DNA from: a virus
Virus record (IMG/VR): IMGVR_UViG_3300002138_000052
Span: 1-54,427 of that record
DNA: 54,427 nt
Strand: one strand, 5' to 3'
Of the stretch, positions 6,441-28,811 are shown piece after piece. Both the position numbers and the translations under genes were made by a program. The stretch's first letter is position 1. Each line of letters starts with the position of its first letter. The notes below the pieces were generated by a model, which was given only the letters and a program-made list of their open reading frames with translations, was not told the origin of the DNA and made no database searches.

Positions 6441-6584
6441 GTCATCTTAGCGGGTGACCGTGGTTCCAGATGGCGAGTAAATTGAGAGAGTAACGTCAGT
6501 ATTGTATCAATTGAAAGCTATGGGTGAGGCTGACTACAAAACCCACGTTCCCAATAGGAATGAATTTGAACCTAAATTTTAAAT

Positions 6585-6677
6585 GGTCATGTGATGTAAT
6601 GTAAGCATCGCTAGTTTTATAAACTAGGAGCACTAGATTGGTGCCGAGTCTCGGTTCAAGTCCGAGCATGACTACCA
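6585..6677 (+). tRNA. Class II tRNA with TAT anticodon (identity uncertain)
   Basis: Acceptor GGTCATG/CATGACT with G1-U72, D-stem GATG/CATC, anticodon loop TTTATAA (TAT) on CTAGT/ACTAG, long variable arm with stem GCAC/GTGC, T-arm CTCGG-TTCAAGT-CCGAG. CCA encoded. A long variable arm is normal for Leu/Ser/Tyr but not Ile, so the amino acid cannot be assigned with confidence. Confidence 0.75.
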
Positions 6678-6725
6678 TCTGTCGTGACAAACATAGGTAA
6701 TTCCTACCCAACGTTTGTTATACGG

Positions 6726-6753
6726 TTGACATGAAACAAAAACGTGTTAATTT
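6726..6753 (+). promoter_or_regulatory. Sigma70-like promoter inside the tRNA array
   Basis: TTGACA, 16-nt spacer, TAATTT; ~43 nt before the next tRNA. Confidence 0.5.
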
Positions 6754-6796
6754 GTCGTAAGAGTATAAAGGAGTTGAACGATAACAGATATTTAAT

Positions 6797-6873
6797 GGTC
6801 ATGTAGCCCAATGGCAGGAGGCAGTGGTTTCAAAAAACGCACAGTGTCAGTTCGAATCTGACCATGACTACCA
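6797..6873 (+). tRNA. tRNA with CAA anticodon (class I, identity uncertain)
   Basis: The acceptor is identical to the previous tRNA (GGTCATG/CATGACT, G1-U72). D-arm GCC/GGC, T-arm GTCAG-TTCGAAT-CTGAC, CCA encoded. The best anticodon register gives GTGGT-TTCAAAA-AACGC with one mismatch (CAA). The short variable loop is unlike the other Leu tRNAs here. Confidence 0.65.
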
Positions 6874-6890
6874 TCAGAATGTTATAGAAT

Positions 6891-6972
6891 GCCGTCGTGG
6901 ATAAGCGAAGTTGGAACAAGCATCAATTTCAAAAATTGACATCCTCTGTGAGTTCGAATCTCACCGCCGGTA
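6891..6972 (+). tRNA. tRNA-Leu(CAA)
   Basis: Anticodon loop TTCAAAA (CAA) on TCAAT/ATTGA, extended D-region and 8-nt variable region shared with the other Leu tRNAs of this array, T-arm GTGAG-TTCGAAT-CTCAC. Acceptor GCCGTCG/CGCCGGT has G1-U72 and one mismatch. CCA not complete. Confidence 0.8.
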
Positions 6973-6974
6973 CC

Positions 6975-7050
6975 TTCGAGGAAAGTTATTAAAAGTGGTA
7001 TAAAACTGTTCGTGCAGAACAATTGTTGGGTTCGATTCCCGACTCCGAGA
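6975..7050 (+). tRNA. tRNA-like gene, anticodon uncertain
   Basis: T-arm TTGGG-TTCGATT-CCCGA and acceptor TTCGAGG/CTCCGAG (one mismatch) are clear. The anticodon arm folds best as TGTTC-GTGCA-GAACA with a 5-nt loop, or as a 7-nt loop containing TGC but lacking U33. Either an unusual tRNA or a decaying one. Confidence 0.5.
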
Positions 7051-7060
7051 GACAATTTAT

Positions 7061-7181
7061 GGGTGAGTGACGGAATAAGACGTAGTGGTAAACAGAGTAT
7101 CCTAGAACAAGCGGGACTACTGAATTGGGCATCGCGTCAGTTGCGGACTCTAGTGTAGAGTGAAATTCTCTATCTCATCCA
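7061..7181 (+). tRNA. Oversized tRNA, probably Leu(CAG), with expanded D-region
   Basis: Acceptor GGGTGAG/CTCATCC, T-arm TAGAG-TGAAATT-CTCTA, anticodon loop GTCAGTT (CAG) on TCGC/GCGG, then the 8-nt variable region typical of the Leu tRNAs here. Total length is ~121 nt; the surplus ~40 nt lies between acceptor and anticodon arm. CC but not CCA encoded. Confidence 0.5.
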
Positions 7182-7185
7182 CCAA

Positions 7186-7314
7186 TTTCGGTAGTGTTAG
7201 CTGATTGATAATACATATAAGCTAGTTTGGGTGTCAAACGAAGCGTAGTTACGTGAATCATCGGTCCACAGAGTTGAGTGGGTATAACACAGGGTTCGAG
7301 TCCCAAGCTGAAAA
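7186..7314 (+). tRNA. Oversized tRNA-like gene, possibly Asp(GTC)
   Basis: Acceptor TTTCGGT/GCTGAAA (with wobbles), D-stem TAGCT/AGCTA, T-loop TTCGAGT on a GGG/CCC stem. A GTGTCAA loop (GTC) sits on TTTGG/ACGAA with one mismatch; an alternative stem GTTTG/CAAAC competes. About 45 extra nt lie in the variable region, including CGTA/TACG. Assignment is tentative. Confidence 0.35.
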
Positions 7315-7325
7315 AATTTCAAAAT

Positions 7326-7410
7326 GGGTGAGTGTATCGTAAGGGAAATTAGAAGAACCGATGTACTTAAAATGCATTGATACTTGAGGGTGCAAGTCCG
7401 TCCTCACCTA
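7326..7410 (+). tRNA. tRNA-Leu(TAA)
   Basis: Acceptor GGGTGAG/CTCACCT with G1-U72, anticodon loop CTTAAAA (TAA) on ATGTA/TGCAT, 8-nt variable region, T-loop TGCAAGT with one stem mismatch. Ends ACC without the final A. Confidence 0.75.
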
Positions 7411-7412
7411 CC

Positions 7413-7505
7413 TGTGTGTATATTATGATAAGTTTGCGCAGACGAGTCATAAGAATGGAAATGGATAAGGCACGAAACTCCGAATTGCACTGACTTATCA
7501 CACAC
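7413..7505 (+). other. Structured non-coding element of tRNA size
   Basis: TGTGT...GATAAGT at the 5' side pairs with ACTTATC-ACACA at the 3' side (7-bp core stem plus an outer stem). No tRNA T-arm or anticodon arm is recognisable inside. It could be a decayed tRNA or a small structured RNA. Confidence 0.35.
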
Positions 7506-14051: not shown

Positions 14052-14321
14052 ATGAATGACAATATCGGACAAATTGCGGATGGATTACTATCAAATCCAA
14101 CGTGTTATTTGACTGGTCGAGAAATAGACTTATTGAGTCCAAAGACTTATCACTGTGACCACATTGTTCCGGTAAGTAAGGGTGGGTCTGCTAAATTAAA
14201 TAATCTTGGGTTGACATGTAAAGATGCCAATATTGCTAAGGGAAATTTAGAATTGGGACAGTTTCTATCTTTATGTGAAGAAATATTAAAATACAACGGA
14301 TACACAGTTTTTAAAAATTAA
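14052..14321 (+). CDS. Small HNH endonuclease
   Basis: 89 aa with CYLTGREIDLLSPKTYHCDHIVP, VSKGGSAKLNNLGL and ANIAKGN: the DH-x-x-P...N...N pattern of HNH nucleases of the McrA/phage type rather than the zinc-finger-fused homing type elsewhere in the window. It abuts the next gene. Could be a packaging-associated or free-standing nuclease. Confidence 0.75.
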   Translation: MNDNIGQIADGLLSNPTCYLTGREIDLLSPKTYHCDHIVPVSKGGSAKLNNLGLTCKDANIAKGNLELGQFLSLCEEILKYNGYTVFKN

Positions 14322-14825
14322 ATGGAAACTATACCAGAGTATGAAACCATAAAAGAAATACCAATCCATAGTTGGATGTGTAAAATGATTTTGCGTTATG
14401 ATAATTTCATTTGGTATGATGATAAAATTGGTAAAATAAGACAAGATATTCTCAATTGGATGAATCAAGTTTCATCCTCGGTTGGAATAAAACATGGAAG
14501 TAGTTTAATATGGTATTATAGAATACCAGAAGCATCCACGCCAAACTTTAAATGTTTGCATATTGATGTATATTTATCAAAATTTAAGATATTTGATAGA
14601 ATTCCGAGAAGTCATGTGGATTTTGAACATTTTTCCAAATTTGTTAAAAAATCTTGGAATTTGGGAGAATTAACTATTGATAGTAATGTTACAACGGACG
14701 ATGTAATGTCATCTTGTATTAGAATGACAAGAACTGAACAGATATATCACGATGTATATGTTTATTTTTCAAAAGGATTTGTAAATCGAAGAAGTGAATT
14801 GATTACTGATGTAATGGCAGCATGA
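14322..14825 (+). CDS. Hypothetical protein, 167 aa
   Basis: Starts directly at the HNH stop. Mixed alpha/beta with many aromatic residues; no motif recognised. Confidence 0.55.
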   Translation: METIPEYETIKEIPIHSWMCKMILRYDNFIWYDDKIGKIRQDILNWMNQVSSSVGIKHGSSLIWYYRIPEASTPNFKCLHIDVYLSKFKIFDRIPRSHVDFEHFSKFVKKSWNLGELTIDSNVTTDDVMSSCIRMTRTEQIYHDVYVYFSKGFVNRRSELITDVMAA

Positions 14826-14874
14826 AATGCTCTGAATATTTTCGTCCACGTTCAAATCGTGGGTAATCAACCAT

Positions 14875-15126
14875 ATGTTAATGTCAGACGTCAAATTAAA
14901 TATTAATTGGAAAGTGACTTGGTGGAAAAAATCCGAATCACCGACTATAGAACATTATTTGGGAAAAACAGCCGGTCCAGTGTTTACTACGATGGATGAG
15001 TGTCAGGGTGCTATCAACACATTCCCACAGGTGGATAAATTTTTTAATCCATGGGTATATCAAGTAAGTCCGACAGATGAAGAAGTCACTCATAAGTTTG
15101 AAGACAATAAAGTGATTGCGTTTTAA
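14875..15126 (+). CDS. Hypothetical protein, 83 aa
   Basis: In-frame ATGs at 14875 and 14881. Contains WKVTWWKKSESP and an internal beta-like GPVFTTMDEC segment. No family recognised. A promoter and tRNAs follow. Confidence 0.55.
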   Translation: MLMSDVKLNINWKVTWWKKSESPTIEHYLGKTAGPVFTTMDECQGAINTFPQVDKFFNPWVYQVSPTDEEVTHKFEDNKVIAF

Positions 15127-15130
15127 GGTG

Positions 15131-15158
15131 TTGACAAATCAGAAAGACCTGATACAGT
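15131..15158 (+). promoter_or_regulatory. Sigma70-like promoter of the second tRNA cluster
   Basis: TTGACA, 16-nt spacer, TACAGT; tRNA-Cys begins 20 nt downstream. Confidence 0.6.
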
Positions 15159-15178
15159 AAAACCAGATTAGATTTTTT

Positions 15179-15251
15179 GGTGTTGTGGCCGAGTTTAGGC
15201 ATCTGTTCGCAAGACAGATTTACACTGGCTAAGTTCCAGTCGATACCTCCA
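15179..15251 (+). tRNA. tRNA-Cys(GCA)
   Basis: Acceptor GGTGTTG/CGATACC, D-arm GCC/GGC, anticodon loop TCGCAAG (GCA) on TCTGT/ACAGA with C at position 33, T-arm ACTGG-CTAAGTT-CCAGT (atypical loop), discriminator T, CCA encoded. Confidence 0.8.
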
Positions 15252-15260
15252 TTTTATTAT

Positions 15261-15332
15261 GGGTAGGTCGTCTAACTGTTAGGACAGTTCCCATTTCTGG
15301 AACAAATGCTGGTTCAAATCCAGCCCTACCCA
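15261..15332 (+). tRNA. tRNA-Glu-like (TTC or TTT register)
   Basis: Perfect acceptor GGGTAGG/CCTACCC, a D-region (TCGTCTAACTGTTAGGAC) resembling tRNA-Glu, T-arm GCTGG-TTCAAAT-CCAGC. The anticodon loop CATTTCT on GTTCC/GGAAC places TTT at 34-36 without U33; a one-base shift gives TTC (Glu), which the D-arm favours. Confidence 0.7.
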
Positions 15333-15341
15333 CCTTTTAAT

Positions 15342-15541
15342 AGGACGTTAGCTCAATTGGTGTAGATATAGTTCTAATTGAATAGTTAGAAATATTTTAC
15401 AGTATGAACTTGGTAGGTGAGTTGAAATCAACCAAAGTTACCGGTGACGATGGATGTGAGTAACCTTAAATATCATACTTTGTGGAGAGCACTTACTTTC
15501 TAAGTAAGGGGTTGGTGGTTCGAGTCCATCACGGCCTGCCA
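15342..15541 (+). tRNA. tRNA-Arg(TCT) interrupted by a ~124-nt insertion in the D-loop
   Basis: The 5' part (acceptor AGGACGT, TA, D-stem GCTC, loop AATTGGT) and 3' part (D-stem GAGC at 15487, CTTAC-TTTCTAA-GTAAG with anticodon TCT, T-arm GGTGG-TTCGAGT-CCATC, acceptor ACGGCCT, G, CCA) together form one tRNA with a single A4-G69 mismatch. About 124 nt (15362-15485) lie inside the D-loop, bounded by imperfect repeats TTGGTGTAGA and TTTGTGGAGA. Insert stems: TTCTAA/TTAGAA, AGTATG/CATACT, GTTG-AAAT-CAAC, GTTAC/GTAAC. A CDS begins 3 nt after the CCA. Confidence 0.7.
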
Positions 15542-15544
15542 TTT

Positions 15545-15775
15545 ATGGTTTTGACTGAAAATGAAGAGAAGTTTTTGAAACGGTATTTTAACGAATACGC
15601 AATACACCGTGGAGAAGATGTTATTGGTGTGTTGATGTTAAATGGTGCGTTCAAAGAACTTCCCGATGGTCAATTGGTTGAATTTTCTAATAAGTTAGAA
15701 GATAAACGGGTGGAAATTGAGTTAAGAGAACAGATTGAAAAACAAAAACAACGATACAACAAAAATGAAAACTGA
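15545..15775 (+). CDS. Hypothetical protein, 76 aa
   Basis: The ATG is 3 nt after the CCA of the interrupted tRNA-Arg. Helical, acidic N-terminus and Lys/Gln-rich C-terminus. Its last codons overlap the next gene's ATG at 15765. Family unknown. Confidence 0.55.
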   Translation: MVLTENEEKFLKRYFNEYAIHRGEDVIGVLMLNGAFKELPDGQLVEFSNKLEDKRVEIELREQIEKQKQRYNKNEN

Positions 15776-16022
15776 ATTGTAGAATTGCAAAGAAGCCGTG
15801 TTTCACTTTAATAAAGCACATTTAACGAATCCGTCGATTCCTATGTGGGTGATTAAAGCCAAGGGTGAAACATTTTACGTGAATCACGTTACGGCGAATG
15901 TTGGTTGGACAACGAAAGAAACAGTTGACAATCCTCATACTAAGGGTAGTATCAAGTTTAAGAATGTGGATGTAGTAATTGAAAACGGTGACGGACTGAT
16001 TACAAATGCATCAGTAGCTTAA
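15765..16022 (+). CDS. Conserved phage protein with in-frame amber codon at codon 6
   Basis: From the ATG at 15765 the frame reads MKTEL, then TAG (15780-15782), then NCKEAVFHFNKAHL and onward. The recognisable core is IPMWVIKAKG...FYVNHVTANVGW...TKETVDNPHTKGSIKFKN, which I recall as a conserved phage protein of unknown function. Without readthrough the only start would be GTG at 15798 with little upstream signal. The 3' end overlaps the amber-suppressor tRNA(CTA) gene by ~15 nt, linking the amber codon and its suppressor in one unit. Confidence 0.6.
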
Positions 16023-16078
16023 TGGCAAAGCGGGAATCTCTAAAATTCTGCATGTGGGTTCGATCCCCACCTTTTGCA
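16008..16078 (+). tRNA. Amber suppressor tRNA, anticodon CTA
   Basis: D-arm GCTT/AAGC, anticodon loop CTCTAAA on GGAAT/ATTCT (positions 34-36 = CTA, complementary to UAG), T-arm GTGGG-TTCGATC-CCCAC. Acceptor GCATCAG/CTTTTGC has two mismatches at positions 4 and 5. Ends ACC without the final A. Amino-acid identity is not predicted. In-frame TAG codons occur at 15780, 18940 and 23383. Confidence 0.8.
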
Positions 16079-16151
16079 CCTTTGTTGAAAATTAAAATAA
16101 GTCGTTTGGAAAGTTTGATAATACTTATCTGAACAATGAAGTGAAAATCGG

Positions 16152-16179
16152 TTGACAAAAAGAAAAACGGTGATAGAGT
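16152..16179 (+). promoter_or_regulatory. Sigma70-like promoter of tRNA-Cys and the giant RNA
   Basis: TTGACA, 16-nt spacer, TAGAGT; predicted start ~16187, 11 nt before tRNA-Cys, with the ~1 kb RNA region following. Confidence 0.6.
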
Positions 16180-16197
16180 AAGTGAAGTAAGAAAAAC

Positions 16198-16271
16198 GGT
16201 GTTGTGGGAAAGCGGTAATCCACTTGTTCCGCAAGAACAGGAAATCAGTGGTTCAAATCCATCCAGCACCT
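16198..16271 (+). tRNA. tRNA-Cys(GCA), second
   Basis: Acceptor GGTGTTG/CAGCACC, anticodon loop CCGCAAG (GCA) on TTGTT/AACAG with C33 as in the other tRNA-Cys, T-loop TTCAAAT on a partly mismatched stem. No CCA encoded. Confidence 0.75.
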
Positions 16272-16274
16272 CTT

Positions 16275-17286
16275 AGGTTAGTTGAGTGTTATACGTGAAA
16301 CCTTAGATTAAAAACTCAACAGTATGGTCGATAATACTAAAAGTTATCCGTCACCTATTGCCGACAAATAATGGAAACTATCATGAAGGGTGATTCATGA
16401 CATTATTGGATTTATGTGTAAATCCACGTTTTTGTAAATTTGTTCTTTGTAAGTTTAGAATTTGGGGGCTTGACCCCTTTAGATAAGTCATCGAAAGGTG
16501 ACAAAAGAGAATTCCCCCTAACGGGAGCTCGCCATCGCAAGATGGACACTCAAGCAACTGATAGAGTCGTTGTCCTTCACTCAAAAGGTGGAGGTATATC
16601 TGACGCTGGATTGGAAAATTGTTGGTTTAGGGTAACACTGTAAACCGCATACTAACGGTACCGCCGAGCAATACCAATTCCTAACGGAACAGCCAAGAAT
16701 AAGATTCAAGTCAAACATGTAGGTGTGAAACCGCAATTAAATGCTTACATGTAGAATGATAGAGAGTGGTCTGGGTAACCATGAACACAATCTTGAAATT
16801 CCGTTGAGTATCCGCAAGAGAAAGACATGGGTCGTGTCGCATATTGTATCCCAAAAGGATATGAAACGACAAGTAACGCACGACCCTGTTAGGTGCATTA
16901 ATAGCTCAATGGTAGAGCAATAGTATTATACACTATATGATTGGTTCAATTCCAAGAATGAAAACGCAAAGTCGTTACGCTCAGTGAATGAAAGTGACTT
17001 AATTCCGAACTCTTAGGAGAATTCGGACGATAGACTGCTCGCAAGGCATAAATCGTTGATATTAAATCAAACGGTGCTCGCAAAGCTTAACTGTCCGCAA
17101 GACAGACGGGTGTAGAGATATTGAGTAGTTCATTGGTTGACTGGAAAAGCTACCAGTATAAAAAAGCAGTCATGTTAAATACTGATATAGGTTTCGACCA
17201 TATTAGTGGATAAAATTAGGAAGCATTGTCGGCAGACGATGTATAATCTAATCAAAGATTAACGTAATATGGTGTAATCTCAACCA
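16275..17286 (+). ncRNA. Giant ornate structured RNA candidate (~1 kb)
   Basis: No credible ORF across ~1 kb. Numerous GNRA-type hairpins are visible: GTCATC-GAAA-GGTGAC (16487-16502), CCATC-GCAA-GATGG (16532-16545), CTGTC-CGCAA-GACAG (17091-17105), CATTGTC-GGCA-GACGATG (17224-17241). Long-range stems are ACATGTA (16715)/TACATGT (16746), GGTCGTG (16830)/CACGACC (16879), CCGAA/TTCGG (17005-17026), and a perfect 9-bp ACCATATTA (17197)/TAATATGGT (17265) closing the 3' domain. A tRNA-like element sits at 16894-16962. Size, tetraloops, tRNA adjacency and phage context recall GOLLD/ROOL RNAs; not verified. Confidence 0.6.
16894..16962 (+). tRNA. tRNA-like element inside the giant RNA (anticodon TAT)
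   Basis: D-arm GCTC/GAGC, anticodon loop ATTATAC (TAT) on ATAGT/ACTAT, T-arm TTGG-TTCAATT-CCAA. The acceptor is only partly complementary (CATT/AATG) and no CCA follows, so it may be a structural domain rather than a working tRNA. Confidence 0.45.
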
Positions 17287-17287
17287 T

Positions 17288-17833
17288 TTAAACTAAAACC
17301 CACCCAAAATAAGACTTTTTCTTTTTAGAGATTAAACTAGAAATGCAACAATCAGCCGATTTTTTATTTTCCGATTTTAACATCTTGATAAAATCAAATC
17401 GTAACCCTGTAAAATTTCGACCATCATATTTATTTTTAAAATTATAAATGAGATTATCAAACGATGGATTTTTATTTTTTGGTTGACTCCTTTTTTTTCG
17501 TTCCAAATCATTATAAAAAACGGTTAGTGGAGTACATGCTTTATAGTGTATATTATAAGCATTTTCGGTTTTGGCTATATCTAAATAAGTCTGTTCGACA
17601 TTACGTAAATTGTTTATGTCTTCAACTATTTCTATTATTTGAAAATCGAAGTTTTCAATACCATATTTATTCCAAGCATTTTGTAAAGGTGCATTTTTAT
17701 GTTTATTGTTGATTAAATCTTTTTTATGTCGGTTGAATCTTGATGTACATCCATAATTTATATTTTTACTACTACCGACGTAATATCGACTGTTAATTTT
17801 ATTGATTATCTTGTATATTCCCACTTTTTTCAT
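17288..17833 (-). CDS. GIY-YIG homing endonuclease (minus strand)
   Basis: 181 aa. N-terminal GIYKIINKINSRYYVGSS is the GIY...YVG catalytic block, followed by R-x-x-x-H-K and an NAWNKYGIENF segment plus the E-x-x-Y/T-L-D-I helix of T4-type GIY-YIG enzymes. The C-terminal Lys-rich part is probably DNA-binding. It converges with the giant RNA, ending 2 nt from it. A small basic ORF overlaps its 5' end. Confidence 0.85.
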   Translation of the reverse strand: MKKVGIYKIINKINSRYYVGSSKNINYGCTSRFNRHKKDLINNKHKNAPLQNAWNKYGIENFDFQIIEIVEDINNLRNVEQTYLDIAKTENAYNIHYKACTPLTVFYNDLERKKRSQPKNKNPSFDNLIYNFKNKYDGRNFTGLRFDFIKMLKSENKKSADCCISSLISKKKKSYFGWVLV

Positions 17834-17954
17834 AATATCTGTTTAAATTTTTCAACTGTTCCATTTTTTGATTTTTCCAGTAATATTTCATTCTTCGTTT
17901 ATTACGGGCCTCAATTCGATCCGATTCCGTTAAATATTTCTTTTTTCTTCCCAT
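17799..17954 (-). CDS. Small basic protein preceding a GIY-YIG gene
   Basis: 51 aa: MGRKKKYLTESDRIEARNKR then a basic/aromatic RMKYYWKNQK region. Its 3' end overlaps the start of the GIY-YIG gene by ~35 nt in another frame. A close relative stands in the same overlapping position before the second minus-strand GIY-YIG gene (32839-32994). The basic, Arg/Lys/Tyr-rich composition suggests nucleic-acid binding. Confidence 0.55.
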   Translation of the reverse strand: MGRKKKYLTESDRIEARNKRRMKYYWKNQKMEQLKNLNRYYEKSGNIQDNQ

Positions 17955-18009
17955 GTATATACATATGAAACATATAATAAAAACAACAAAAAAGTTACAA
18001 AAGAAAATG

Positions 18010-18037
18010 TTGACGTTTTCAAATCTTGAGTTATATT
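18010..18037 (+). promoter_or_regulatory. Sigma70-like promoter of the Ser tRNA pair
   Basis: TTGACG, 16-nt spacer, TATATT; tRNA-Ser starts 12 nt downstream. Confidence 0.6.
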
Positions 18038-18048
18038 TATTTGGACAT

Positions 18049-18138
18049 GGATGAGTAACCGGACAGGCGTGCCGGAACGGTTTTGAAAACCGATTGGTCC
18101 TTCACGGGATTGGCCTTCGAGTGGTCACTTTTCCGCCA
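18049..18138 (+). tRNA. tRNA-Ser(TGA)
   Basis: Class II. Acceptor GGATGAG/CTTTTCC with one U-U mismatch, anticodon loop TTTGAAA (TGA) on CGGT/ACCG, long variable arm, T-arm TGGCC-TTCGAGT-GGTCA, discriminator G, CCA encoded. Confidence 0.85.
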
Positions 18139-18139
18139 T

Positions 18140-18226
18140 GGTTCTTTGGGTGAGAGGATTAAACCAGAAGTTTGCTAAACTTCCGTAGTGTAAAATCTAC
18201 CATCAGTTCAAATCTGATAGGAACCG
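18140..18226 (+). tRNA. tRNA-Ser(GCT)
   Basis: Class II. Acceptor GGTTCTT/AGGAACC, anticodon loop TTGCTAA (GCT) on GAAGT/ACTTC, long variable arm, T-arm ATCAG-TTCAAAT-CTGAT, discriminator G. CCA not encoded. Confidence 0.88.
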
Positions 18227-18278
18227 CAGAGTCCCCTTCTTTCTTCTAATTCTTCAAACTTCTTCGTCTCATTCCCAC

Positions 18279-18286
18279 TATTTATA
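18279..18286 (+). promoter_or_regulatory. TATTTATA motif before the ATG (candidate late promoter)
   Basis: TATTTATA ends 3 nt before the ATG at 18290; the same octamer precedes the starts at 22015, 42409 and 52881. Confidence 0.35.
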
Positions 18287-18289
18287 CCC

Positions 18290-18664
18290 ATGGACAAACA
18301 ACCGAAATCTGATTTAACGCAAATTGCGAAGGAATTTACTGCATTTATCGTTAAGGAATTGGGAATACAAAAACCCTACAAGATTAAATTGTCTCCAACC
18401 AGAACAGAAGCCTTCACCACCCACGCATACTACAATCCCTCCAATGGTGAAATCGGTGTTTGCATAAATAAGCGTCAAACCGCAGATGTATTACGTAGTT
18501 TAGCCCATGAAATGATTCATCACAAACAAAATCAGGAAGGCCGATTGAAAACCGGTGAAGAAATACCTGATATTGGTGGAGAAATCGAAGATGAGGCCAA
18601 TAGTGTTGCTGGGCAACTAGTTAAGAAGTTCGGTTACACCACAAAACACCAGATTTACGAATAA
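18290..18664 (+). CDS. HExxH zinc metallopeptidase-like protein
   Basis: 124 aa. LRSLAHEMIHHKQNQEGR carries the HExxH zinc/catalytic motif, followed ~25 residues later by an acidic GGEIEDEANSVAG helix that can supply the third ligand. This compact arrangement is seen in phage metallopeptidase-like proteins; SprT-like or virion proteases are possible. Preceded by the TATTTATA motif shared with candidate virion genes. Confidence 0.75.
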   Translation: MDKQPKSDLTQIAKEFTAFIVKELGIQKPYKIKLSPTRTEAFTTHAYYNPSNGEIGVCINKRQTADVLRSLAHEMIHHKQNQEGRLKTGEEIPDIGGEIEDEANSVAGQLVKKFGYTTKHQIYE

Positions 18665-18668
18665 CGAC

Positions 18669-18696
18669 TTGACACAATCGGTGTAGATAGTATCAT
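18669..18696 (+). promoter_or_regulatory. Sigma70-like promoter
   Basis: TTGACA, 16-nt spacer, TATCAT; predicted start ~3 nt before the ATG at 18706, leaderless or nearly so. Confidence 0.65.
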
Positions 18697-18705
18697 TCTC
18701 TATGA

Positions 18706-19332
18706 ATGAGAGAAATTTATACTGACAGTGTTTTGCCCAGTGATTTTCGTTTACGTCACGGTGATAAGGTCATTTTCTTGGCCGGACCAACTCCACGGGA
18801 TGTCACCGTCAAATCTTGGCGACCAGCCGCATTAGAACATTTGAATAGATGTTTATATGATGGTGTCGTGTGTATCCCCGAACGAAAAGATTGGAATGCA
18901 CAGTTTGATTATGTGGACCAAGTTTCGTGGGAAAGAAAATAGTTACAAACCGCTGATGCCATTTTGTTTTGGATTCCTCGTAATCTGGTAGATATGCCAG
19001 CATTCACAACCAACGTGGAATTTGGTTATTATCTCTGTAAGAATCCACGTAAGGTTTATTATGGTCGTCCAGATGATTCTGAAAAGAACAAATATTTGGA
19101 TTGGTTGTTTGAGTTGGAGACTGGTATGAATCGACTATGTGCGGTTATGCCTTATCCAAATATGACGAAAACACCTTTTATTGACCAATTCATTCATAGT
19201 AATACCGTTGACATTTGGTGGAAATTGAAGTATAAACCAGTAGATATAAAAACATTGGATGTGAGTAAGATATTCGCTAAGGCGATTAAGAGCATCCATA
19301 ACAACGAAAGTGTAAGTGAGTTATTTGTATGA
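18706..19332 (+). CDS. Nucleoside 2-deoxyribosyltransferase-like protein with in-frame TAG
   Basis: One continuous frame with a single TAG at 18940-18942. Before it: KVIFLAGPTPR, SWRPAALEHL and DYVDQVSWERK. After it: LQTADAILFWIPR, TTNVEFGYYL and YYGRPDDSEKNKYLDWL. Together these match the order of the nucleoside 2-deoxyribosyltransferase/DUF4406-like fold (AGP motif, catalytic E in the W-E-R helix, D-A-I-L-F-W strand, N-V-E-F-G). Neither half is a complete domain. Readthrough by the tRNA(CTA) would give a 208-aa protein; otherwise it is a nonsense-interrupted pseudogene. Confidence 0.7.
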
Positions 19333-19679
19333 ACACAGTTGATAAATATACATTTGGAAATACTACGTCGGCCATAAATTTGGCCGACATTCTGACCAAA
19401 GAAAATAATCCAAAACTACTTGGAAAGGTAAGTTCGGTGTTGTCACGGGTCAACCGATACATTAATCTGATTGACTGTGGGTTGGAAAAAACTGATGATA
19501 GGAAAGTCATTCTCCAAATGGTCAAGAATGCAATCATATCGGAGATAGATGAAAAAGAGTGGCCGAAGTCGGTTAAAACACATGTCAAATTGATGGTTAC
19601 AACAAATTATCGAAAAGCCTTTCATGGAGAACCTGATAGAAATGATTTAACCAGAAAATTACAAAAGACTAGAAAATGA
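19329..19679 (+). CDS. Hypothetical protein, 116 aa
   Basis: Overlaps the previous stop by ATGA and the next start likewise, so it is part of a coupled operon. Helical and basic C-terminus. No motif recognised. Confidence 0.6.
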   Translation: MNTVDKYTFGNTTSAINLADILTKENNPKLLGKVSSVLSRVNRYINLIDCGLEKTDDRKVILQMVKNAIISEIDEKEWPKSVKTHVKLMVTTNYRKAFHGEPDRNDLTRKLQKTRK

Positions 19680-19972
19680 AATCAAGAGAATATACCGAAG
19701 AGGAAGTAAGAAAAATGTTTTTGAACCACATTCGAGGTCTGGCTGCATATTGGGATAGTGTTGAAGGTAGAACATCACGGGAGAAATTAGATGGGTTGGC
19801 ATTTTCAATTTTGGTTATGTTAGATGGTGGAAGTGCGTTGCCCGGATTTGATGTGTCACCAAGTCCTCATCCAAGTGACAAGGAATTTCACATTGACGAG
19901 GGAACAAATTATTTCCCAAGTGACGGAGAGTGTCAAATTGCCGGTTGTTTACACGAAGAATACCATAAGTAG
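19676..19972 (+). CDS. Conserved hypothetical protein
   Basis: 98 aa, starts with an ATGA overlap. N-terminal helix with EEEVRKMFLNHIRG, middle LAFSILVMLDGG, C-terminal C-x4-C-x-H (CQIAGCLHEEYH). I recognise it as a recurrent phage/bacterial hypothetical. It ends in TAG and the next CDS follows in the same frame 3 nt later; the family normally seems to end here, so this TAG is probably a true stop. Confidence 0.65.
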   Translation: MKSREYTEEEVRKMFLNHIRGLAAYWDSVEGRTSREKLDGLAFSILVMLDGGSALPGFDVSPSPHPSDKEFHIDEGTNYFPSDGECQIAGCLHEEYHK

Positions 19973-19975
19973 ACT

Positions 19976-20284
19976 ATGATAGAGTATCCATCAATTATCA
20001 ATTCAAGTAAAGCTCCACGGGGAAACTGTGTCGCTTTCGTGAAGTATGATGGGTCGAATTTTAGAGCCAAATATACTCAAAAACAGGGATTTAATCTATT
20101 TGGTTCACGTCGAGAATTGATTGACGAATCACACAAATTTTTGGGGGAGTCGGTGACTATATTCAAGAAGAAATATGCCAGTACCCTCACCGACTTCTTC
20201 AAGAAAGATAAAGAACTGCGTAATGAAAGAGAAATCATCGTTTTTGGTGAATTTTTCACCGAAAGATTTACCGAATTATTTTAA
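19976..20284 (+). pseudogene. N-terminal fragment of an RNA ligase (Rnl2-like)
   Basis: 102 aa. AFVKYDGSNFRAKY contains nucleotidyltransferase motif I (K-x-D-G, adenylated Lys), followed by FGSRRELI and EIIVFGEFF (motif III-like). This is the start of a T4 Rnl2-type RNA ligase, but the frame stops after motif III; motifs IV and V and the C-terminal domain are missing and are not found downstream. Likely a truncated remnant. Confidence 0.6.
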
Positions 20285-20288
20285 ATTT

Positions 20289-20774
20289 ATGAAATTACAA
20301 TCAACAGACGAGTGTAAACAGTTTTTGAGTGACCATTATGGGTTAGCCGTTAATGGTTGGAAACGAGTATCGAAATCGGGAGATAAAAAAGAATCGACTC
20401 GAATCTTTACTCACAAAGATTCAAAATTTCGATACCAAGTAATTACCGTGGGAGATTACTTTTTCTCCGTGTCACCAATCGTAGAATTACCAGTATTTAC
20501 TACCGAGGAATTGAAAAAGGCTGCGAAGGGAATTAAACACTGTGGGGATTATTGTCATTTTTACTTCAATCGAAAACTTGGAGAATTGTATATTTCTATG
20601 GGTGATGGAGATTGTGCGGGTGAGGAAGAAAATGGAACCTCGACATATGAAGAAATCGTTGAAATGGTCAAAGATTTGAAAGGTGTCAAAACCATCACTG
20701 TTGAGGCCGAATGTAATCCCGACACAGATAGTGGAGAATGGGTTAGGATTGAGGGTACATTTGGAACCACATAA
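20289..20774 (+). CDS. Hypothetical protein, 161 aa
   Basis: From the ATG at 20289, 4 nt after the ligase fragment. Contains an acidic GDGDCAGEEENG segment and alternating strands. No family recognised. Confidence 0.55.
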   Translation: MKLQSTDECKQFLSDHYGLAVNGWKRVSKSGDKKESTRIFTHKDSKFRYQVITVGDYFFSVSPIVELPVFTTEELKKAAKGIKHCGDYCHFYFNRKLGELYISMGDGDCAGEEENGTSTYEEIVEMVKDLKGVKTITVEAECNPDTDSGEWVRIEGTFGTT

Positions 20775-20886
20775 ACATGGAACGTGGACTTTCTACACCT
20801 TTGACGAAGCTCTAAAGTTACCATTAATGGTTAGTACGGACGATATTTTGAGACATTTGATTAAGAAAAATTATGAGGCCAAGTAA
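20731..20886 (+). CDS. Possible small protein, start uncertain
   Basis: An open frame ends at 20886, overlapping the next ATG. The residues GTWTFYTFDEALKLPLMV and DDILRHLIKKN look protein-like, but only GTG/TTG starts are available. Low confidence. Confidence 0.3.
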   Translation: MENGLGLRVHLEPHKHGTWTFYTFDEALKLPLMVSTDDILRHLIKKNYEAK

Positions 20887-21574
20887 GATATTTATTGTCA
20901 GGCACGGTGAAAGTGAAGGAAACATAGATAAGAGTGTATATGGCACAAAGCCTGATTATGCGGTTAGATTGACACCCAAGGGTATCGAACAGTCGTTTGA
21001 GGCTGGAAAGTCCTTGGTAAGTCGAATGGTTGATAATGGTGAGGGAAAGAAAAACTGCATCATCTACCACAGTCCATATATACGTGCGATTGAGACAACC
21101 AACCACATTATTCGAGGAATGAAGCCGGATGTTGTTCTTACTAGAGACATGGTTATAGAAGAACCACGGTTGAGAGAACAGGAATGGCACTCGACTACTC
21201 CGTTGAGTGACTATACCAAACAAGCCGAGTCGGATAGAGTTGGTTACGGTATATTTCACTATCAGTTTCCATTTGGTGAAAGTTGTGCGCACGTCTTTGA
21301 TAGATTGTGCGGATATGTCACAGATATGGGACTTTCTTTTCAACAGTCGTCGAAATTTCCACCGAATCTCATAATTGTTACTCATGGTATGACTATGAGA
21401 GTGTTGTTAATGAAAATTTTCGGTAAAACTGTGAGTGAGTTTGAAACGTGGAGGAATCCACACAATTGTCAGATTTTGGAATTGACGAAGGAAAAGGTTC
21501 ATTATCACTTTGATTTTGAGACTCTAAGAAAACGTCCGTTGGCTCACGAACATAGTTTACAGATTGAAGTATGA
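20873..21574 (+). CDS. Histidine phosphatase-family protein (PGM-like)
   Basis: 233 aa. IFIVRHGESEGN is the RHG phosphohistidine motif near residue 10. SPYIRAIETT supplies the conserved Arg, LREQEW the acid region, and VTHGMTMRVLL the second catalytic His. Complete for the phosphoglycerate mutase-like superfamily; substrate unknown (nucleotide or sugar phosphates are common). ATGA overlap with the next gene. Confidence 0.85.
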   Translation: MRPSKIFIVRHGESEGNIDKSVYGTKPDYAVRLTPKGIEQSFEAGKSLVSRMVDNGEGKKNCIIYHSPYIRAIETTNHIIRGMKPDVVLTRDMVIEEPRLREQEWHSTTPLSDYTKQAESDRVGYGIFHYQFPFGESCAHVFDRLCGYVTDMGLSFQQSSKFPPNLIIVTHGMTMRVLLMKIFGKTVSEFETWRNPHNCQILELTKEKVHYHFDFETLRKRPLAHEHSLQIEV

Positions 21575-21990
21575 AAACTTGGACACAAATTATAACAAAT
21601 ACCCTTGACCAACAACGAGTCCGTCGTTGGTCAAATGTATTCTGGGCGATTGATTTACATGACAGTGTAATCACCGGTAAGTATAATAGATTCAATCAGG
21701 GGTCTACTCTTTACCCTTATGCCAAGGAGACATTGGACCTATTGTATAATAGTCCAATACACCGAACGACTCTATGGACGTCCAGTTACAAAGACTCGGC
21801 TCAAGAGGTAATTCATCGGTTTGATTTGAAATTTCACTATTTTAACGCAAATCCAGAGTGTCCTAATGATGAATTGTGCGATTTTGGTTCCAAATTCTAC
21901 TTTAACTTCCTAATTGACGATAAAGCAGGGTTTGATGGTAATAGTGATTGGGAAGAAATCTACAACTGTTTAAAAACGTTGTCGGTTTAA
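21571..21990 (+). CDS. HAD-superfamily phosphatase-like protein
   Basis: 139 aa, ATGA-coupled to the histidine phosphatase. FWAIDLHDSVI resembles HAD motif I (D-x-x-D variant), LWTSSYKDSA motif II and FLIDDKAGFD motif IV. Two phosphatases back to back suggest a nucleotide or phosphate-recycling step. Confidence 0.65.
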   Translation: MKTWTQIITNTLDQQRVRRWSNVFWAIDLHDSVITGKYNRFNQGSTLYPYAKETLDLLYNSPIHRTTLWTSSYKDSAQEVIHRFDLKFHYFNANPECPNDELCDFGSKFYFNFLIDDKAGFDGNSDWEEIYNCLKTLSV

Positions 21991-22002
21991 GTATAATTCC
22001 TC

Positions 22003-22010
22003 TATTTATA
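22003..22010 (+). promoter_or_regulatory. TATTTATA motif inside a small hairpin before the ATG
   Basis: TATTTATA lies 4 nt before the ATG at 22015 and forms the loop of CCTCTA/TAGAGG, which also contains the AGAGG Shine-Dalgarno. Confidence 0.35.
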
Positions 22011-22014
22011 GAGG

Positions 22015-22851
22015 ATGATTAGTCTCAAAGAATTACTATCCGAAGTTCCAGTCGATACGTTTCAAACCGTAGGTGACTTTGAAAAGGGTGCATCGTTCCA
22101 AGATAAACGGGACCGTGCATTATTAACCAACCCTATAACTCCGGTAAAAGTTAGGGATTTCTTCAAAAACACCAGTTCGGATTTCGACTTCTATTTCGTA
22201 AATTTAAAAGGTCGTCGTAAATTTGCAGAAAGAGGTAAAGTTGATGAATCCGTCATCTATGCACCCTATCCAGATGGGTTGGGTATTAAACGTGAAACTT
22301 TGGCTGGTGGTGGTATAAATGAAAACAATATCACCGTATTCTTCGTTGGTAATTCCGCAGCTGAAAAAGTTCCCATGACTTCGTGGACCATTGCACATAG
22401 ATTCGGTCATGCAATTCGATTTGAATATGGTTTTAAAGAATATGTCAAATGGTTGGAATCCCAATTCAATGAAATTTTAAAGATGTATAATGTGGGAATA
22501 AACCCACGATATGATCGTTATGGTTATCGTATCGACACTAATGTAGATTCCGCAAAAGCAAAATTATTCAATCAGGTTGGAACCATGAGAAGTGCAAGAC
22601 AAGGTGGAATTGATAGATATGCAGAGTTCTACTATGAATTATTTGCACAATATTTGAAAGATGGTAAGGTTACTCTCAATAGATTGAAAAATACCATTAA
22701 GACGGGAACTGGACCTTATGGACGTGCTGAAACCGCTTATACGAAACAGGTAGAGGTTGTAAATGATATATTGGAGGGTATTGAAAGAGATTTCTACTTC
22801 TATGCCGAAGATGCTTTGAATGGTTGCGTGGGAAATGTTTACATCATGTAA
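22015..22851 (+). CDS. Protein with virion-targeting-like N-terminus and HxxGH motif
   Basis: 278 aa. Begins MISLKELLSEV, a member of the MIKLKDLL.E N-terminal family seen in five other genes here. Near residue 125 it has WTIAHRFGHAIRFEYG, resembling a zinc-peptidase helix but with R-F-G in place of the catalytic Glu triplet, and later YAEFYYELFAQYL, a possible third-ligand helix. It may be an inactive or variant metallopeptidase-fold protein. Inference: virion internal protein. Confidence 0.6.
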   Translation: MISLKELLSEVPVDTFQTVGDFEKGASFQDKRDRALLTNPITPVKVRDFFKNTSSDFDFYFVNLKGRRKFAERGKVDESVIYAPYPDGLGIKRETLAGGGINENNITVFFVGNSAAEKVPMTSWTIAHRFGHAIRFEYGFKEYVKWLESQFNEILKMYNVGINPRYDRYGYRIDTNVDSAKAKLFNQVGTMRSARQGGIDRYAEFYYELFAQYLKDGKVTLNRLKNTIKTGTGPYGRAETAYTKQVEVVNDILEGIERDFYFYAEDALNGCVGNVYIM

Positions 22852-22857
22852 AAGGTT

Positions 22858-23169
22858 ATGATTAAATTGAGTAAATTACTAATTGAAGCTTTATCCCGAT
22901 TGAAGAAAATATCGTTGGGAGAATCCACCGACTCGAATACGGATGGGGATGAAAATTTTGATGAACATCCTGATTGGTCGCCTGGTAAAATTGTAGTTGG
23001 TTATGTTGATGGAAATTTGAACATCATAGGAAGTTCCAAACACCCCGGCCATGCTGAATTATACAACGCGGGATTAACAAAAAGAATCAACTACGCGGGG
23101 AGAATAGCATGGAGATATAATATTCTACATAAAACTTTGTTCATGTGGCAAACGACTTCTACTTCGTAA
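22858..23169 (+). CDS. Protein with MIKLSKLLIE N-terminus and GYVDG domain
   Basis: 103 aa. The N-terminal targeting-like peptide is followed by an acidic linker and KIVVGYVDGNLNIIGSSK...HAELYNAG. It ends in TAA, but the same frame continues through 23194-23622 with a second GYIDNYGK domain, so a longer ancestral protein has probably been broken. Confidence 0.5.
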   Translation: MIKLSKLLIEALSRLKKISLGESTDSNTDGDENFDEHPDWSPGKIVVGYVDGNLNIIGSSKHPGHAELYNAGLTKRINYAGRIAWRYNILHKTLFMWQTTSTS

Positions 23170-23202
23170 CAACGTGATGCAATAAAAAGTTATTTGTTAA
23201 AA

Positions 23203-23622
23203 ATGAACCCATCATATAAAATTGAAGATATACAGTCTTTGGCTAGTTTTGAACCAAATTCTTATGAGAGTCAAGCAGCTCAATATTTGTCGCATGGTGG
23301 ATATTCTGGTTATGAACAAAAACCCGTTAAACCGGAAAAAACCAGAACATATTCCTATGACCCAAATATGGATGCAATTGCATAGTCATTGGTTGATATT
23401 AAGTGGATTTTAGGATATATTGACAATTATGGAAAAGTCCATTATAAGGTTGTCAAGAAACAAGATACGGTGGATAATCACAATGGACTGTGGCCCGGAC
23501 CAAAACAACGTAAGTGGAGATGGTTACCTGAAAAACCAAATCATATCAATGCCTATGGTGATGAATTGGATGTAGAGGATCAAGATGTGATATGGAGAAT
23601 AATAGACCGATATAAAGTATGA
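23203..23622 (+). CDS. Continuation ORF with in-frame TAG and GYID domain
   Basis: From the ATG at 23203 the frame runs to a TAG at 23383-23385 and on to TGA at 23622. After the TAG comes WILGYIDNYGKVHYK...NGLWPGPKQRKWRW, resembling the GYVDG domain of the upstream ORF (same frame). Either amber readthrough links the parts or the gene is decayed. ATGA overlap with the following gene indicates the downstream part is still within the operon. Confidence 0.45.
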
Positions 23623-24425
23623 TTAAACTCAAAGATATTTTAGAGAGTGTGGGAATTGACGATGGTGAAGTCAAATTTGATTTGATGAATGACCATCCGA
23701 ACGACCCACTCAAGACATTCATCAATTCCAAACAGAATAGATTTGAACCAGTCAGTGCATTTCGATTGACAAATGTTTACTATGCGTATCGGTTTACTCC
23801 ATACACCCAACAAGTTAAAATGTATGGTGACAAAAACGCATTAACCAGAGATGAGTGGAATGATAAAATCAATGCAATTAGAACGGATATAAAGGCGTAT
23901 AAGAACCCCAATACGGTTACGAATGTCAATACCATGATTGATACCTCGTTGTTGAGATTTGAGAGAGTTGCTAAATTATCAAGCTTCGATACCATTATCC
24001 CACTCAAATCCTCATCGGTGTTGAACGACGTTATTGCAGAAAAGATAAGCAAGAAAACCAATGCTAAGGTGTTATCAGACATTATCGTAAAAAACACGTT
24101 AAAGAACGTTAAGTTGAGTATTCCAAGTTCCGAAACGAGTGATAAGACGAAAGAATATTTGGCAACAATTGATAAACGATTCGCTAAAATGCCGGATGAG
24201 GAATTCAAGAGTAAGATGATAAAAGCTAGCTTTAGACGATATGTGTCAAACTTCCTAAAGTATAAAAACGACCCGAATTTGGTCAAAGAATATATCGCTG
24301 GTAAAAATATTCTAATTATCGACGATACGTTGGGTGAAGGTGCAACTCTCGCTGAACTACGTCGGTTAATTATGGAATATAACCCAAAATCTATCACATT
24401 CTACGTCTTTTTGAAAGACTATTAA
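23619..24425 (+). CDS. Phosphoribosyltransferase-like protein with MIKLKDILE N-terminus
   Basis: 268 aa. Near the C-terminus ILIIDDTLGEGATLAE is the classical PRPP-binding loop of type I phosphoribosyltransferases (two acidic residues, then T-x-G-x-T-L). N-terminal MIKLKDILESV belongs to the shared peptide family. ATGA-coupled upstream. Substrate base unknown; possible nucleotide salvage enzyme, perhaps packaged. Confidence 0.7.
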   Translation: MIKLKDILESVGIDDGEVKFDLMNDHPNDPLKTFINSKQNRFEPVSAFRLTNVYYAYRFTPYTQQVKMYGDKNALTRDEWNDKINAIRTDIKAYKNPNTVTNVNTMIDTSLLRFERVAKLSSFDTIIPLKSSSVLNDVIAEKISKKTNAKVLSDIIVKNTLKNVKLSIPSSETSDKTKEYLATIDKRFAKMPDEEFKSKMIKASFRRYVSNFLKYKNDPNLVKEYIAGKNILIIDDTLGEGATLAELRRLIMEYNPKSITFYVFLKDY

Positions 24426-24428
24426 ACC

Positions 24429-24827
24429 ATGATTAAATTAAAAGACCTTATACAAGAAGGGTGGATTGATGAGGTATCCACGACCACTCGTAGTTTTCGT
24501 CAAATTCATCAAGATGAAGATCCTTCTGGACAAAGACACGATTTGAGATTAACATGTGTCGAATGTGGAACTACCTCGACATGTAGATGTAGGAAACCAA
24601 AGAGAGAATTTAAGGGTTTATGTGATACGTGTGCTAAGGTCGATGAAAATAACGATTTTCTGGCCAAATTTGGAGTCGGTCCAAAATACAAAGCTCCCGA
24701 ACCAGTAAAACGTAAATGTCCTAAATGTAATAAAGAAAATGCGGTTGTGAGAGAAAGTCATGCCGATACTGACATGAATGAAATGGTATTGGAATGTCCT
24801 GACTGTGGTTGTGAGGTAAGTTTATGA
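24429..24827 (+). CDS. Multi-zinc-ribbon protein with MIKLKDLIQE N-terminus
   Basis: 132 aa. After the MIKLKDLIQE peptide come CVECGTTSTCRCRK, CDTCAK, then RKCPKCNKEN and LECPDCGCEV: about four CxxC pairs, two zinc ribbons. Likely nucleic-acid or protein binding. ATGA overlap with the CCA-adding enzyme gene. Confidence 0.65.
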   Translation: MIKLKDLIQEGWIDEVSTTTRSFRQIHQDEDPSGQRHDLRLTCVECGTTSTCRCRKPKREFKGLCDTCAKVDENNDFLAKFGVGPKYKAPEPVKRKCPKCNKENAVVRESHADTDMNEMVLECPDCGCEVSL

Positions 24828-26275
24828 TTAAGATGAAAGATTTAGTTATGGAAGGTGCGAAGGAAAATGCTGCGTTAGATTACTTGAGTCAGTTGGTCCA
24901 AAGTGGACCATTCAAAAACCGAGTATATCTGGCGGGTGGTGCCGTGCGTGATATGGAATTGGGTAAAGACCCAAAAGACCTAGATGTAGTGGTAACGGGT
25001 GGTATTGACGCAGGCATGGAGTTTGCGAAGTGGGCAACGCAACATATGGGGAATTTCAAGGATGGTAGTAATCCTGTCTTATTTCCGACGTATGGAACGG
25101 CTAAATTTACATTATCTGGTATCACGCACAAGGATATTGATTTGAGTGACGTCGATATTGAGGCGGTTGCAACTCGTAAGGAGAAATACACGGCTGGTAG
25201 TCGTAAACCAGAGGTTAGTGCTGGTGACTTGGAAGATGATGTAAATCGTCGTGATTTCACTGTCAACAGTTTGTTGAAAGATTTGACGACGGGTGAAATC
25301 TTGGATTTGACTGGTAAAGGTAAAGAGGACATTAAACGTGGTGTGGTTCAAACACCACTGAATCCTGATGTCATCTTCTCCGAAGACCCACTGCGTATTT
25401 TGAGAGCGGCACGATTTGCGGTCAAGTATAATTGGGATTTACCAATGTTCATGATTCGGGCAATGAAACGAAATGCACCTCAGTTAAAGAATATCAGTTT
25501 TGAACGTATCCGTGATGAATTGGATAAGATGTTATTGACGACTTCCCCACACCGTGCAATCAAGTTGTTGAAGGTGACGGGTGTTCTTGATTATGTCATT
25601 CCAGAGTTCAAGGATGCGTATAAAATGACGCAGAACAAGTATCATACTGCGACGGTATTCAATCATACGTTGGACGTGTTATCCAACACACAATCGAATA
25701 GTTTGATTTCTCGTATTGGTGCATTATTGCACGATATTGGTAAGACGGCTACACGAACGGTGGTAGATAACGAAGTTCATTTCTATGCACACGAAATGGT
25801 TGGTGCAAAAATGGCTGAGAAGATTCTTACCCGTTTGAAGTATCCACGGGAAATCATTGATGCGGTTGTTTTGGGTGTTCGTAACCACATGCGTTTGAAA
25901 CAGTCGGGTGAAGAAGGAGAGAAAATTTCCGACAAAGCCCTACGTAAAATTACGGTGGAATTACAACCTCATTTACATGACATTTTGAGTATTATCCAAG
26001 CTGATAACTTGGCTCATGCTCCGGGTCATCAAATGCCAAATCAAATTCCGAATATCATCAAACGTATTGAACAGTTGATGAATACCATTCCTGTTAAGGG
26101 TCAGAAATTACCTGTCACGGGTGAGGACTTGAAGGCCATGGGAATTCCTACTGGACCATTATACAAAGAGTTGTTGGACTTGGTGAGAGACAAGAGATTG
26201 GAAACACCAAACGCAACAAAAGAAGAGTATTTAGAGTTGATTAAGAACTACCTGTCAACGAAGAATCCTCAATAA
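24824..26275 (+). CDS. cca: tRNA nucleotidyltransferase (CCA-adding enzyme) with HD domain
   Basis: 483 aa. VYLAGGAVRDMELGKDPKDLDVVV is the class II nucleotidyltransferase head with the catalytic D-x-D; RRDFTVNSLL and DPLRILRAARFA are the conserved nucleobase-recognition and neck motifs. An HD domain follows (ALLHDIGKTAT, then H-E and H-x-R-L). The enzyme adds or repairs the 3' CCA, matching the many tRNAs here that lack an encoded CCA. Unusually, it starts with MIKMKDLVMEGAK, the peptide shared with neighbouring genes, suggesting virion packaging. Confidence 0.92.
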   Translation: MIKMKDLVMEGAKENAALDYLSQLVQSGPFKNRVYLAGGAVRDMELGKDPKDLDVVVTGGIDAGMEFAKWATQHMGNFKDGSNPVLFPTYGTAKFTLSGITHKDIDLSDVDIEAVATRKEKYTAGSRKPEVSAGDLEDDVNRRDFTVNSLLKDLTTGEILDLTGKGKEDIKRGVVQTPLNPDVIFSEDPLRILRAARFAVKYNWDLPMFMIRAMKRNAPQLKNISFERIRDELDKMLLTTSPHRAIKLLKVTGVLDYVIPEFKDAYKMTQNKYHTATVFNHTLDVLSNTQSNSLISRIGALLHDIGKTATRTVVDNEVHFYAHEMVGAKMAEKILTRLKYPREIIDAVVLGVRNHMRLKQSGEEGEKISDKALRKITVELQPHLHDILSIIQADNLAHAPGHQMPNQIPNIIKRIEQLMNTIPVKGQKLPVTGEDLKAMGIPTGPLYKELLDLVRDKRLETPNATKEEYLELIKNYLSTKNPQ

Positions 26276-26279
26276 TAGT

Positions 26280-26417
26280 CTATTTAAAAAGGCTGAAAAG
26301 CCATTTAATAAACTCGACTATTTGAACTAAAATAAACACAATCGCCATAATGAAGAACGTAACTGTTGTCATTATGGCGATAAACGTGCAGTAAAGAAAT
26401 ATCAGTAAATAAATCAT
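26280..26417 (-). CDS. Small membrane protein, 45 aa (minus strand)
   Basis: A hydrophobic ORF (starts MIYLLIFLYCTFIAIMTTVT) translationally coupled by ATGA to the minus-strand gene 26414-26614. Nearly the whole length is membrane-like and it ends WLFSLFK then TAG. The coding sequence contains an 11-bp inverted repeat TCGCCATAATG/CATTATGGCGA (~26342-26382). Confidence 0.5.
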   Translation of the reverse strand: MIYLLIFLYCTFIAIMTTVTFFIMAIVFILVQIVEFIKWLFSLFK

Positions 26418-26614: not shown

Positions 26615-26701
26615 ACTTCAAATGTATATACAGGAGAGGTGAGATAGTCAAGGTTATTATGACTCTCTATTTGATAAATAGAAACAGTTAAACCAAATGT
26701 A

Positions 26702-28808: not shown

Positions 28809-28811
28809 TGT

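Follow-up and report, generated by a model that had tools for sequence, protein, structure and literature searches.

The stretch of DNA analysed here, called the window below, is a 54,427-base virus record (IMG/VR IMGVR_UViG_3300002138_000052) that carries a tRNA gene with the amber-suppressor anticodon CUA (tRNA-CUA) at 16008-16080 and, directly 5' of it, a short gene at 15765-16022 whose sixth codon (15780-15782) is an in-frame TAG. The final codons of this gene and its TAA stop overlap the 5' 15 nucleotides of the tRNA. On readthrough the gene, referred to here as the gated gene, opens M-K-T-E-L-TAG-NCKEAVFHFNK and encodes 85 amino acids. The gene, the tRNA and all the TAG codons and interrupted frames of the window discussed below lie on the plus strand.

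ARAGORN calls the tRNA as CUA, in the loop CTCTAAA with U33 that an earlier note on this DNA, made from the sequence alone, had described, and a covariance-model search, which the same note had proposed as a check, matched the Rfam tRNA model RF00005 at 53.8 bits. The label "Pyl" attached by ARAGORN is its name for any tRNA with this anticodon and is based on the anticodon only. The window tRNA belongs to class I, with G1-C72, C2-G71, A73 and a variable loop of 4 nucleotides, and its 3' end reads ACC, the last A of CCA not being encoded at the locus. In the aligned relatives G1-C72 and C2-G71 are conserved and position 73 is A or sometimes G; these acceptor and discriminator bases do not settle the amino acid identity. 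Many of the tRNA-CUA genes (contigs L067, L077, L093 and similar) have an A31-C39 mismatch that leaves an anticodon stem of 4 base pairs, opened at its loop end; a related change in the anticodon stem, opened at the opposite end, affects stop reading (PMC13092985). In L127 and L128 (87-161 and 5613-5687, respectively) the tRNA-CUA has an unusual T arm (GGGATCGTTACCC) and receives no CUA call from ARAGORN. About 750 bases 3' of the window tRNA lies a GOLLD RNA (16829-17286; Rfam, 209.8 bits) with an Ile(UAU) tRNA called inside it, and in L003 GOLLD-like sequence recognised by eye follows the tRNA-CUA at about 6500-7460, the embedded tRNA being mostly missing.

The TAG at 15780 and a second in-frame TAG at 18940 are both present in a separately assembled contig, L002, which equals window positions 14224-29329 at 99.97% without gaps, and since the two assemblies have them in common, assembly error was ruled out as their source. 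When the gated gene is aligned with its closest relatives, their TAGs all fall in one column. One of these, the 173,817-base contig L003/G002, shares about 50% protein identity with the window in another gene and likewise carries a tRNA-CUA and a family gene whose TAG is at the identical position; between G002 and the window, silent changes flank the conserved TAG. IMG/VR contained further relatives, and another occurs in Rhizobium phage RHph_I1_18 (MN988519), the sole isolate with a TAG-bearing copy, in which the tRNA is annotated and the gated gene is not, apparently because of its stop.

Two scans of IMG/VR, with search patterns placed inside the domain of the family and away from the TAG, yielded 80 and 79 loci, together 147 distinct contigs with 121 distinct gene starts, out of about 390 relatives present in that database. 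The domain is recognised by the signature FHFNK...PMW...TKET...TKGS, which is also present in the window gene as judged by a hidden Markov model and by alignments. A strict test, in which an ATG had to be followed by 1-9 codons, a TAG and then the domain in frame, was passed by 78 of the 80 and 78 of the 79 loci, i.e. by 144 of the 147 contigs. An early TAA or TGA occurred in none of them, and the three remaining copies (L083, L095 and L156) are free of any early stop. The statement of the earlier note that the TAG at 15780 interrupts a conserved phage protein in frame is thus well supported. When the loci were scanned for a Shine-Dalgarno site followed by an ATG and a short stop-terminated open reading frame (ORF), TAG accounted for 145 hits in the family and 4 elsewhere, TAA for 0 and 2, and TGA for 0 and 1; these TAA and TGA controls reject an origin of the leaders as chance ORFs. 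Three other early-TAG matches, in G002 (7534), G006 (142089) and L209, were judged to be chance matches for lack of coding support or owing to a better downstream start. On the family tree, many forks of which are unresolved, few changes are needed to account for the members without TAG.

The leader from ATG to TAG, 1-9 codons long, varies in both length and sequence, so that no fixed DNA motif is involved. Of 61 distinct starts, 50 have a Shine-Dalgarno-like site ahead of the ATG. In 8 of the 61 leaders there is no start-like codon, ATT, ATC, ATA and CTG included, between the TAG and the invariant FHFNK, and changes downstream of the TAG fall mostly at the third codon position (3836, versus 1640 and 2012). 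Taken together, the ribosome-binding site at the ATG, the leaders without an alternative start and the excess of third-position changes indicate that the frame is translated through the TAG.

The gene is closely linked to a tRNA-CUA. In the first set, ARAGORN found one no more than about 6 kb away in 52 of the 80 loci, and wherever a locus had exactly one ARAGORN tRNA this was a CUA tRNA (32 of 32 and 49 of 49 in the two overlapping sets). Patterns and a covariance model added tRNAs that ARAGORN had missed or that lay elsewhere in the contig, bringing the relatives of the first set with a tRNA-CUA in the same contig to at least 70 of 80; the rest comprise four fragments in which a contig end lies close to the gene, one contig (L101) in which the tRNA has been lost and five with none. 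The arrangement differs by group. In that of the window the tRNA directly follows the gene and overlaps its 3' end; other groups have it upstream of the gene, and in seven cases about 90-110 bases separate it from the ATG. Complete tmRNA genes are also present in two relatives of the window phage (L028, 13391-13767; L034, 14678-15057).

Individual contigs record the loss and the displacement of this arrangement. In L101, which is close to L059, a single deletion has cut away the gene's 3' end together with two thirds of the tRNA, anticodon arm included, and the gated gene additionally has a TAA at the invariant Trp. The family gene is TAG-free in L083 and L156, and the gene upstream of it in the same orientation, which resembles PTH2 (peptidyl-tRNA hydrolase), starts with a Shine-Dalgarno site followed by ATG-x-TAG. 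These gated neighbours score 19.5 and 15.3 bits against Pfam PTH2, below the cut-off of 23; the neighbours in the jumbo phages Phosso and Atu_ph07, whose copies of the family domain are extended at the N terminus and lack the TAG, are clear PTH2 genes (59-61 bits). A PTH2 or PTH2-like gene thus stands upstream of the family gene in four phages. From this comparison it appears that the gate moved to the neighbouring gene where the main gene is TAG-less. In L084 an HNH endonuclease gene directly upstream of the gated family gene (5208-5975) is gated as well, with the ATG-GCA-TAG opening seen in many family genes, and may be a homing element exploiting the gate.

We consider it likely that the tRNA-CUA and the adjacent gene form a natural suppressor-tRNA translational gate. 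Comparison of the relatives shows the tRNA itself, a conserved in-frame TAG, coding past the TAG, linkage of the two genes, their joint loss and relocation of the gate. Ribosomes would begin at an ordinary start codon, in the relatives mostly preceded by a strong Shine-Dalgarno site, and would meet a UAG within 1-9 codons. When the phage tRNA is absent, release factor 1 would terminate translation after a few residues; once the tRNA-CUA has been produced and a host synthetase has charged it, some of the ribosomes would decode the UAG as an amino acid and make the full protein. Release factor 1 and the phage tRNA would thus compete at the early UAG, the full-length product needing the tRNA, and elsewhere UAG would keep its normal meaning with incidental partial readthrough. 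The purpose may be regulatory, to impose a feed-forward delay or a threshold in the course of infection; suppression may be timed, as the earlier note had suggested as a possibility. The TAG lies very near the start, and the inserted residue therefore seems less important than the gate. Its retention over wide divergence, though one base change removes it, argues that gating itself has been selected.

Several observations weigh against this interpretation. A tRNA-CUA was looked for and not found in G006 (L074, 188 kb), which carries the TAG gene, nor in the larger contigs L062, L069, L073 and L125. The converse occurs in L095, which retains the tRNA-CUA and in whose 136-kb contig no gate was found. 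Jumbo-phage relatives of the gene lack the TAG, and Phosso among them keeps a tRNA-CUA; the suppressor reported in Atu_ph07 is UCA, not CUA (PMC6102473). TAG stops elsewhere are only mildly reduced. That the tRNA is charged, that the UAG is read through, that this serves regulation and which residue is inserted are inferences on our part. Finally, the tRNA-CUA of the window has two acceptor mismatches, T4-T69 and C5-T68, that its relatives lack. The window phage encodes a Thg1-like tRNA-His guanylyltransferase (48726-49577) and a CCA-adding enzyme (24824-26272), which might provide tRNA-end repair for the mismatched tRNA.

Three other explanations of the early TAG were weighed. The ATG-x-TAG could be a minimal leader ORF at which ribosomes stop and then re-initiate at a non-canonical start past the TAG, the tRNA being unrelated. 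The codon after the TAG is indeed ATT or ATC in 38 of 67 distinct leaders, and an in-frame ATG, GTG or TTG precedes the domain in 35 of 61; however, 8 of the 61 leaders lack any start-like codon, the candidate codons of the others differ, the Shine-Dalgarno site serves the ATG, and neither the exclusive use of TAG, never TAA or TGA, nor the linkage and joint loss with the tRNA-CUA would be explained. We regard re-initiation as very improbable. Another idea is that the main effect of the TAG is to make the phage depend on the tRNA, which would be a selfish or addiction-like element retained without any benefit of timing. That gene and tRNA are tightly linked and were lost together in L101 would fit a retention device of this kind, but a single change from TAG to a sense codon would suffice to escape it and yet the TAG persists across deep divergence, and the gate on the PTH2-like gene where the main gene is TAG-less suggests selection for the gate itself; this explanation seems improbable to us.

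The third is that TAG is reassigned throughout the genome, as in genetic code 15. In favour of this are the suppressor tRNA and the rarity of TAG as a stop in the window, on which the earlier note had remarked: TAG terminates 1 of 62 ORFs of at least 100 amino acids. As a terminator it reaches 5.1% in G002, 8.3% in RHph_I1_18, 7.2% in the loci with a single tRNA and 17.4% in G006, where no tRNA was found, a comparison that is only suggestive because the phages differ in GC content. Against reassignment, TAG still terminates 2-10% of genes; in G002 and RHph_I1_18, both of which have a tRNA-CUA, its share is 5-8% of ORFs, and the TAG at 19970 is a genuine stop (see below). Moreover, in-frame TAGs supported by homology across the contigs are no commoner than TAA or TGA; the raw count was swamped by antisense frames, and the filtered version, still noisy, serves only to compare stop codons with one another. 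Genome-wide reassignment is almost certainly not the case. The selective suppression that the note had favoured over full reassignment is supported, with the evidence concentrated on one gene, that at 15780; comparison gave no support for 23383, 46244 or 51734.

Returning to the product of the proposed gate, AlphaFold2 predicts a small beta-rich domain for the window protein and a second model (mean predicted local distance difference test scores, pLDDT, of 86.6, the window value, and 86.7), in which the TAG residue sits where the first strand begins; long members have another domain after the beta-rich one, and then an acidic tail. No relative was found in the PDB by fold searches, nor anything by sequence search. 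The family gave no match above background in Pfam, PHROGs or NCBIfam and no useful match in PADLOC, the product has no homology to release factors, and no relatives of the gene occurred in the bacterial and archaeal genome contigs searched. A match in BFVD, A0A6J7WMG8, is a family member of 160 amino acids, the start of which was probably placed at an internal Met. Given that a PTH2-like gene, itself gated in L083 and L156, stands upstream of the family gene in four phages, a role of the protein in translation is probable. On a more speculative and rather unlikely extension, the gate would be widespread in T4-like and other large phages and would control a translation-takeover operon of gated protein and peptidyl-tRNA hydrolase, with the gated protein shifting the competition at UAG so that the switch would be self-reinforcing or self-limiting.

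The other TAGs listed in the earlier note, at 18940, 23383, 46244 and 51734, are in frame as claimed. That at 18940-18942 lies within a nucleoside 2-deoxyribosyltransferase-like ORF (18706-19332) and had been placed between the two halves of one enzyme fold; on readthrough, a single PF15891 (Nuc_deoxyri_tr2) domain indeed spans it (residues 22-117, the TAG being residue 79; 49.3 bits against a cut-off of 30; E=7e-13). Homologues run uninterrupted across the position, with Gly there in G002 (GGG) and G006, and the TAG occurs only in the window phage. The C-terminal 71 amino acids of the ORF derive from a phosphoribosyl pyrophosphate (PRPP) synthetase gene through an apparent deletion of about 6 kb, the deoxyribosyltransferase and PRPP-synthetase genes being about 6.5 kb apart in G002. 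A second, phage-specific suppression target is plausible here. Since the gene is a deletion fusion, decay is also possible, and we give slightly less than an even chance to nonsense decay of a fused, dispensable gene: the fusion itself and the Gly of the TAG-less relatives speak for it, while the otherwise intact frame, common to both assemblies, and the presence of a suppressor tRNA speak against it. The TAG may thus reflect either tolerated readthrough or decay.

The TAG at 23383-23385, in a candidate readthrough ORF at 23203-23622, had been taken to interrupt a frame; codon bias is seen on either side, and a homologue spanning the TAG was looked for and not found. At 46244-46246 a homologue was likewise looked for without success, and at 51734-51736, where readthrough would add 4 amino acids, the only match is a near-identical contig. 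Two TAGs regarded as genuine stops by the earlier note bear this out: the parts upstream and downstream of 19970-19972 match two separate genes that lie apart in G002, and 1490-1492, which ends a 2'-5' RNA ligase-like protein, is probably genuine, a G002 homologue aligning to residue 167, two short of the TAG. The latter gene (986-1492), 2'-5' RNA ligase or LigT-like, also gives a weak match to Acb1 (anti-CBASS; E=0.004, below cut-off). At 19976-20284 there is an N-terminal RNA-ligase fragment of 102 amino acids with a KYDGSN motif, ending in TAA, i.e. a truncated ligase.

To our knowledge, suppressor tRNAs have often been reported in phages with the standard code, with no known target. The pyrrolysine cassette, in which pylT accompanies methyltransferase genes that contain TAG, is similar to the present case in that a CUA tRNA is encoded alongside genes whose in-frame TAG it reads or, here, would read. 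The body of tRNA-Pyl has a 6-bp anticodon stem, a variable loop of 3 nucleotides and one base between the acceptor and D stems, whereas the tRNA described here has a canonical body with a two-base spacer between these stems and, in most members, a variable loop of 4-5 nucleotides. The present case is also set apart by the position of the TAG, at the N-terminal edge and not in an active site.

Amber recoding in phages has been described in the literature as whole-genome code changes (PMC11210395, PMC9523058, PMC13037316). In those code-15 phages (crAss-like, Lak and jumbo phages) a phage tRNA-CUA reads in-frame TAG, but there TAG is spread across many genes, whereas here it remains a stop, with one early TAG conserved per operon; the combination of widespread in-frame TAG and avoidance of TAG as terminator was not observed. 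The gate also resembles prfB, which encodes release factor 2, where an in-frame stop near the gene start controls synthesis of the full protein (PMC12421855); prfB, however, relies on TGA and a +1 frameshift, whereas here the codon is TAG, the frame continues and the tRNA would be the switch. Isolated phages such as Stenotrophomonas phage Summit, too, have a suppressor tRNA (PMC9022506), the target of which was not identified, whereas a candidate target is offered here for a large group of phages. The literature searched, which covered part of that on recoding, contained no description of the gated gene, and a natural on/off amber gate appears not to have been described previously. The comparison thus puts forward a suppressor-tRNA target that is specific, deeply conserved and present in hundreds of viral contigs, its family being one that Pfam, PHROGs and NCBIfam lack, and it makes the purpose of phage suppressor tRNAs directly testable in the isolated phage RHph_I1_18. 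The closest parallel in behaviour is a synthetic feed-forward "leak dampener" engineered in E. coli, in which a suppressor tRNA opens a TAG-bearing gene (PMC7969014); if our reading is true, the present case would be the natural counterpart of that engineered genetic circuit.
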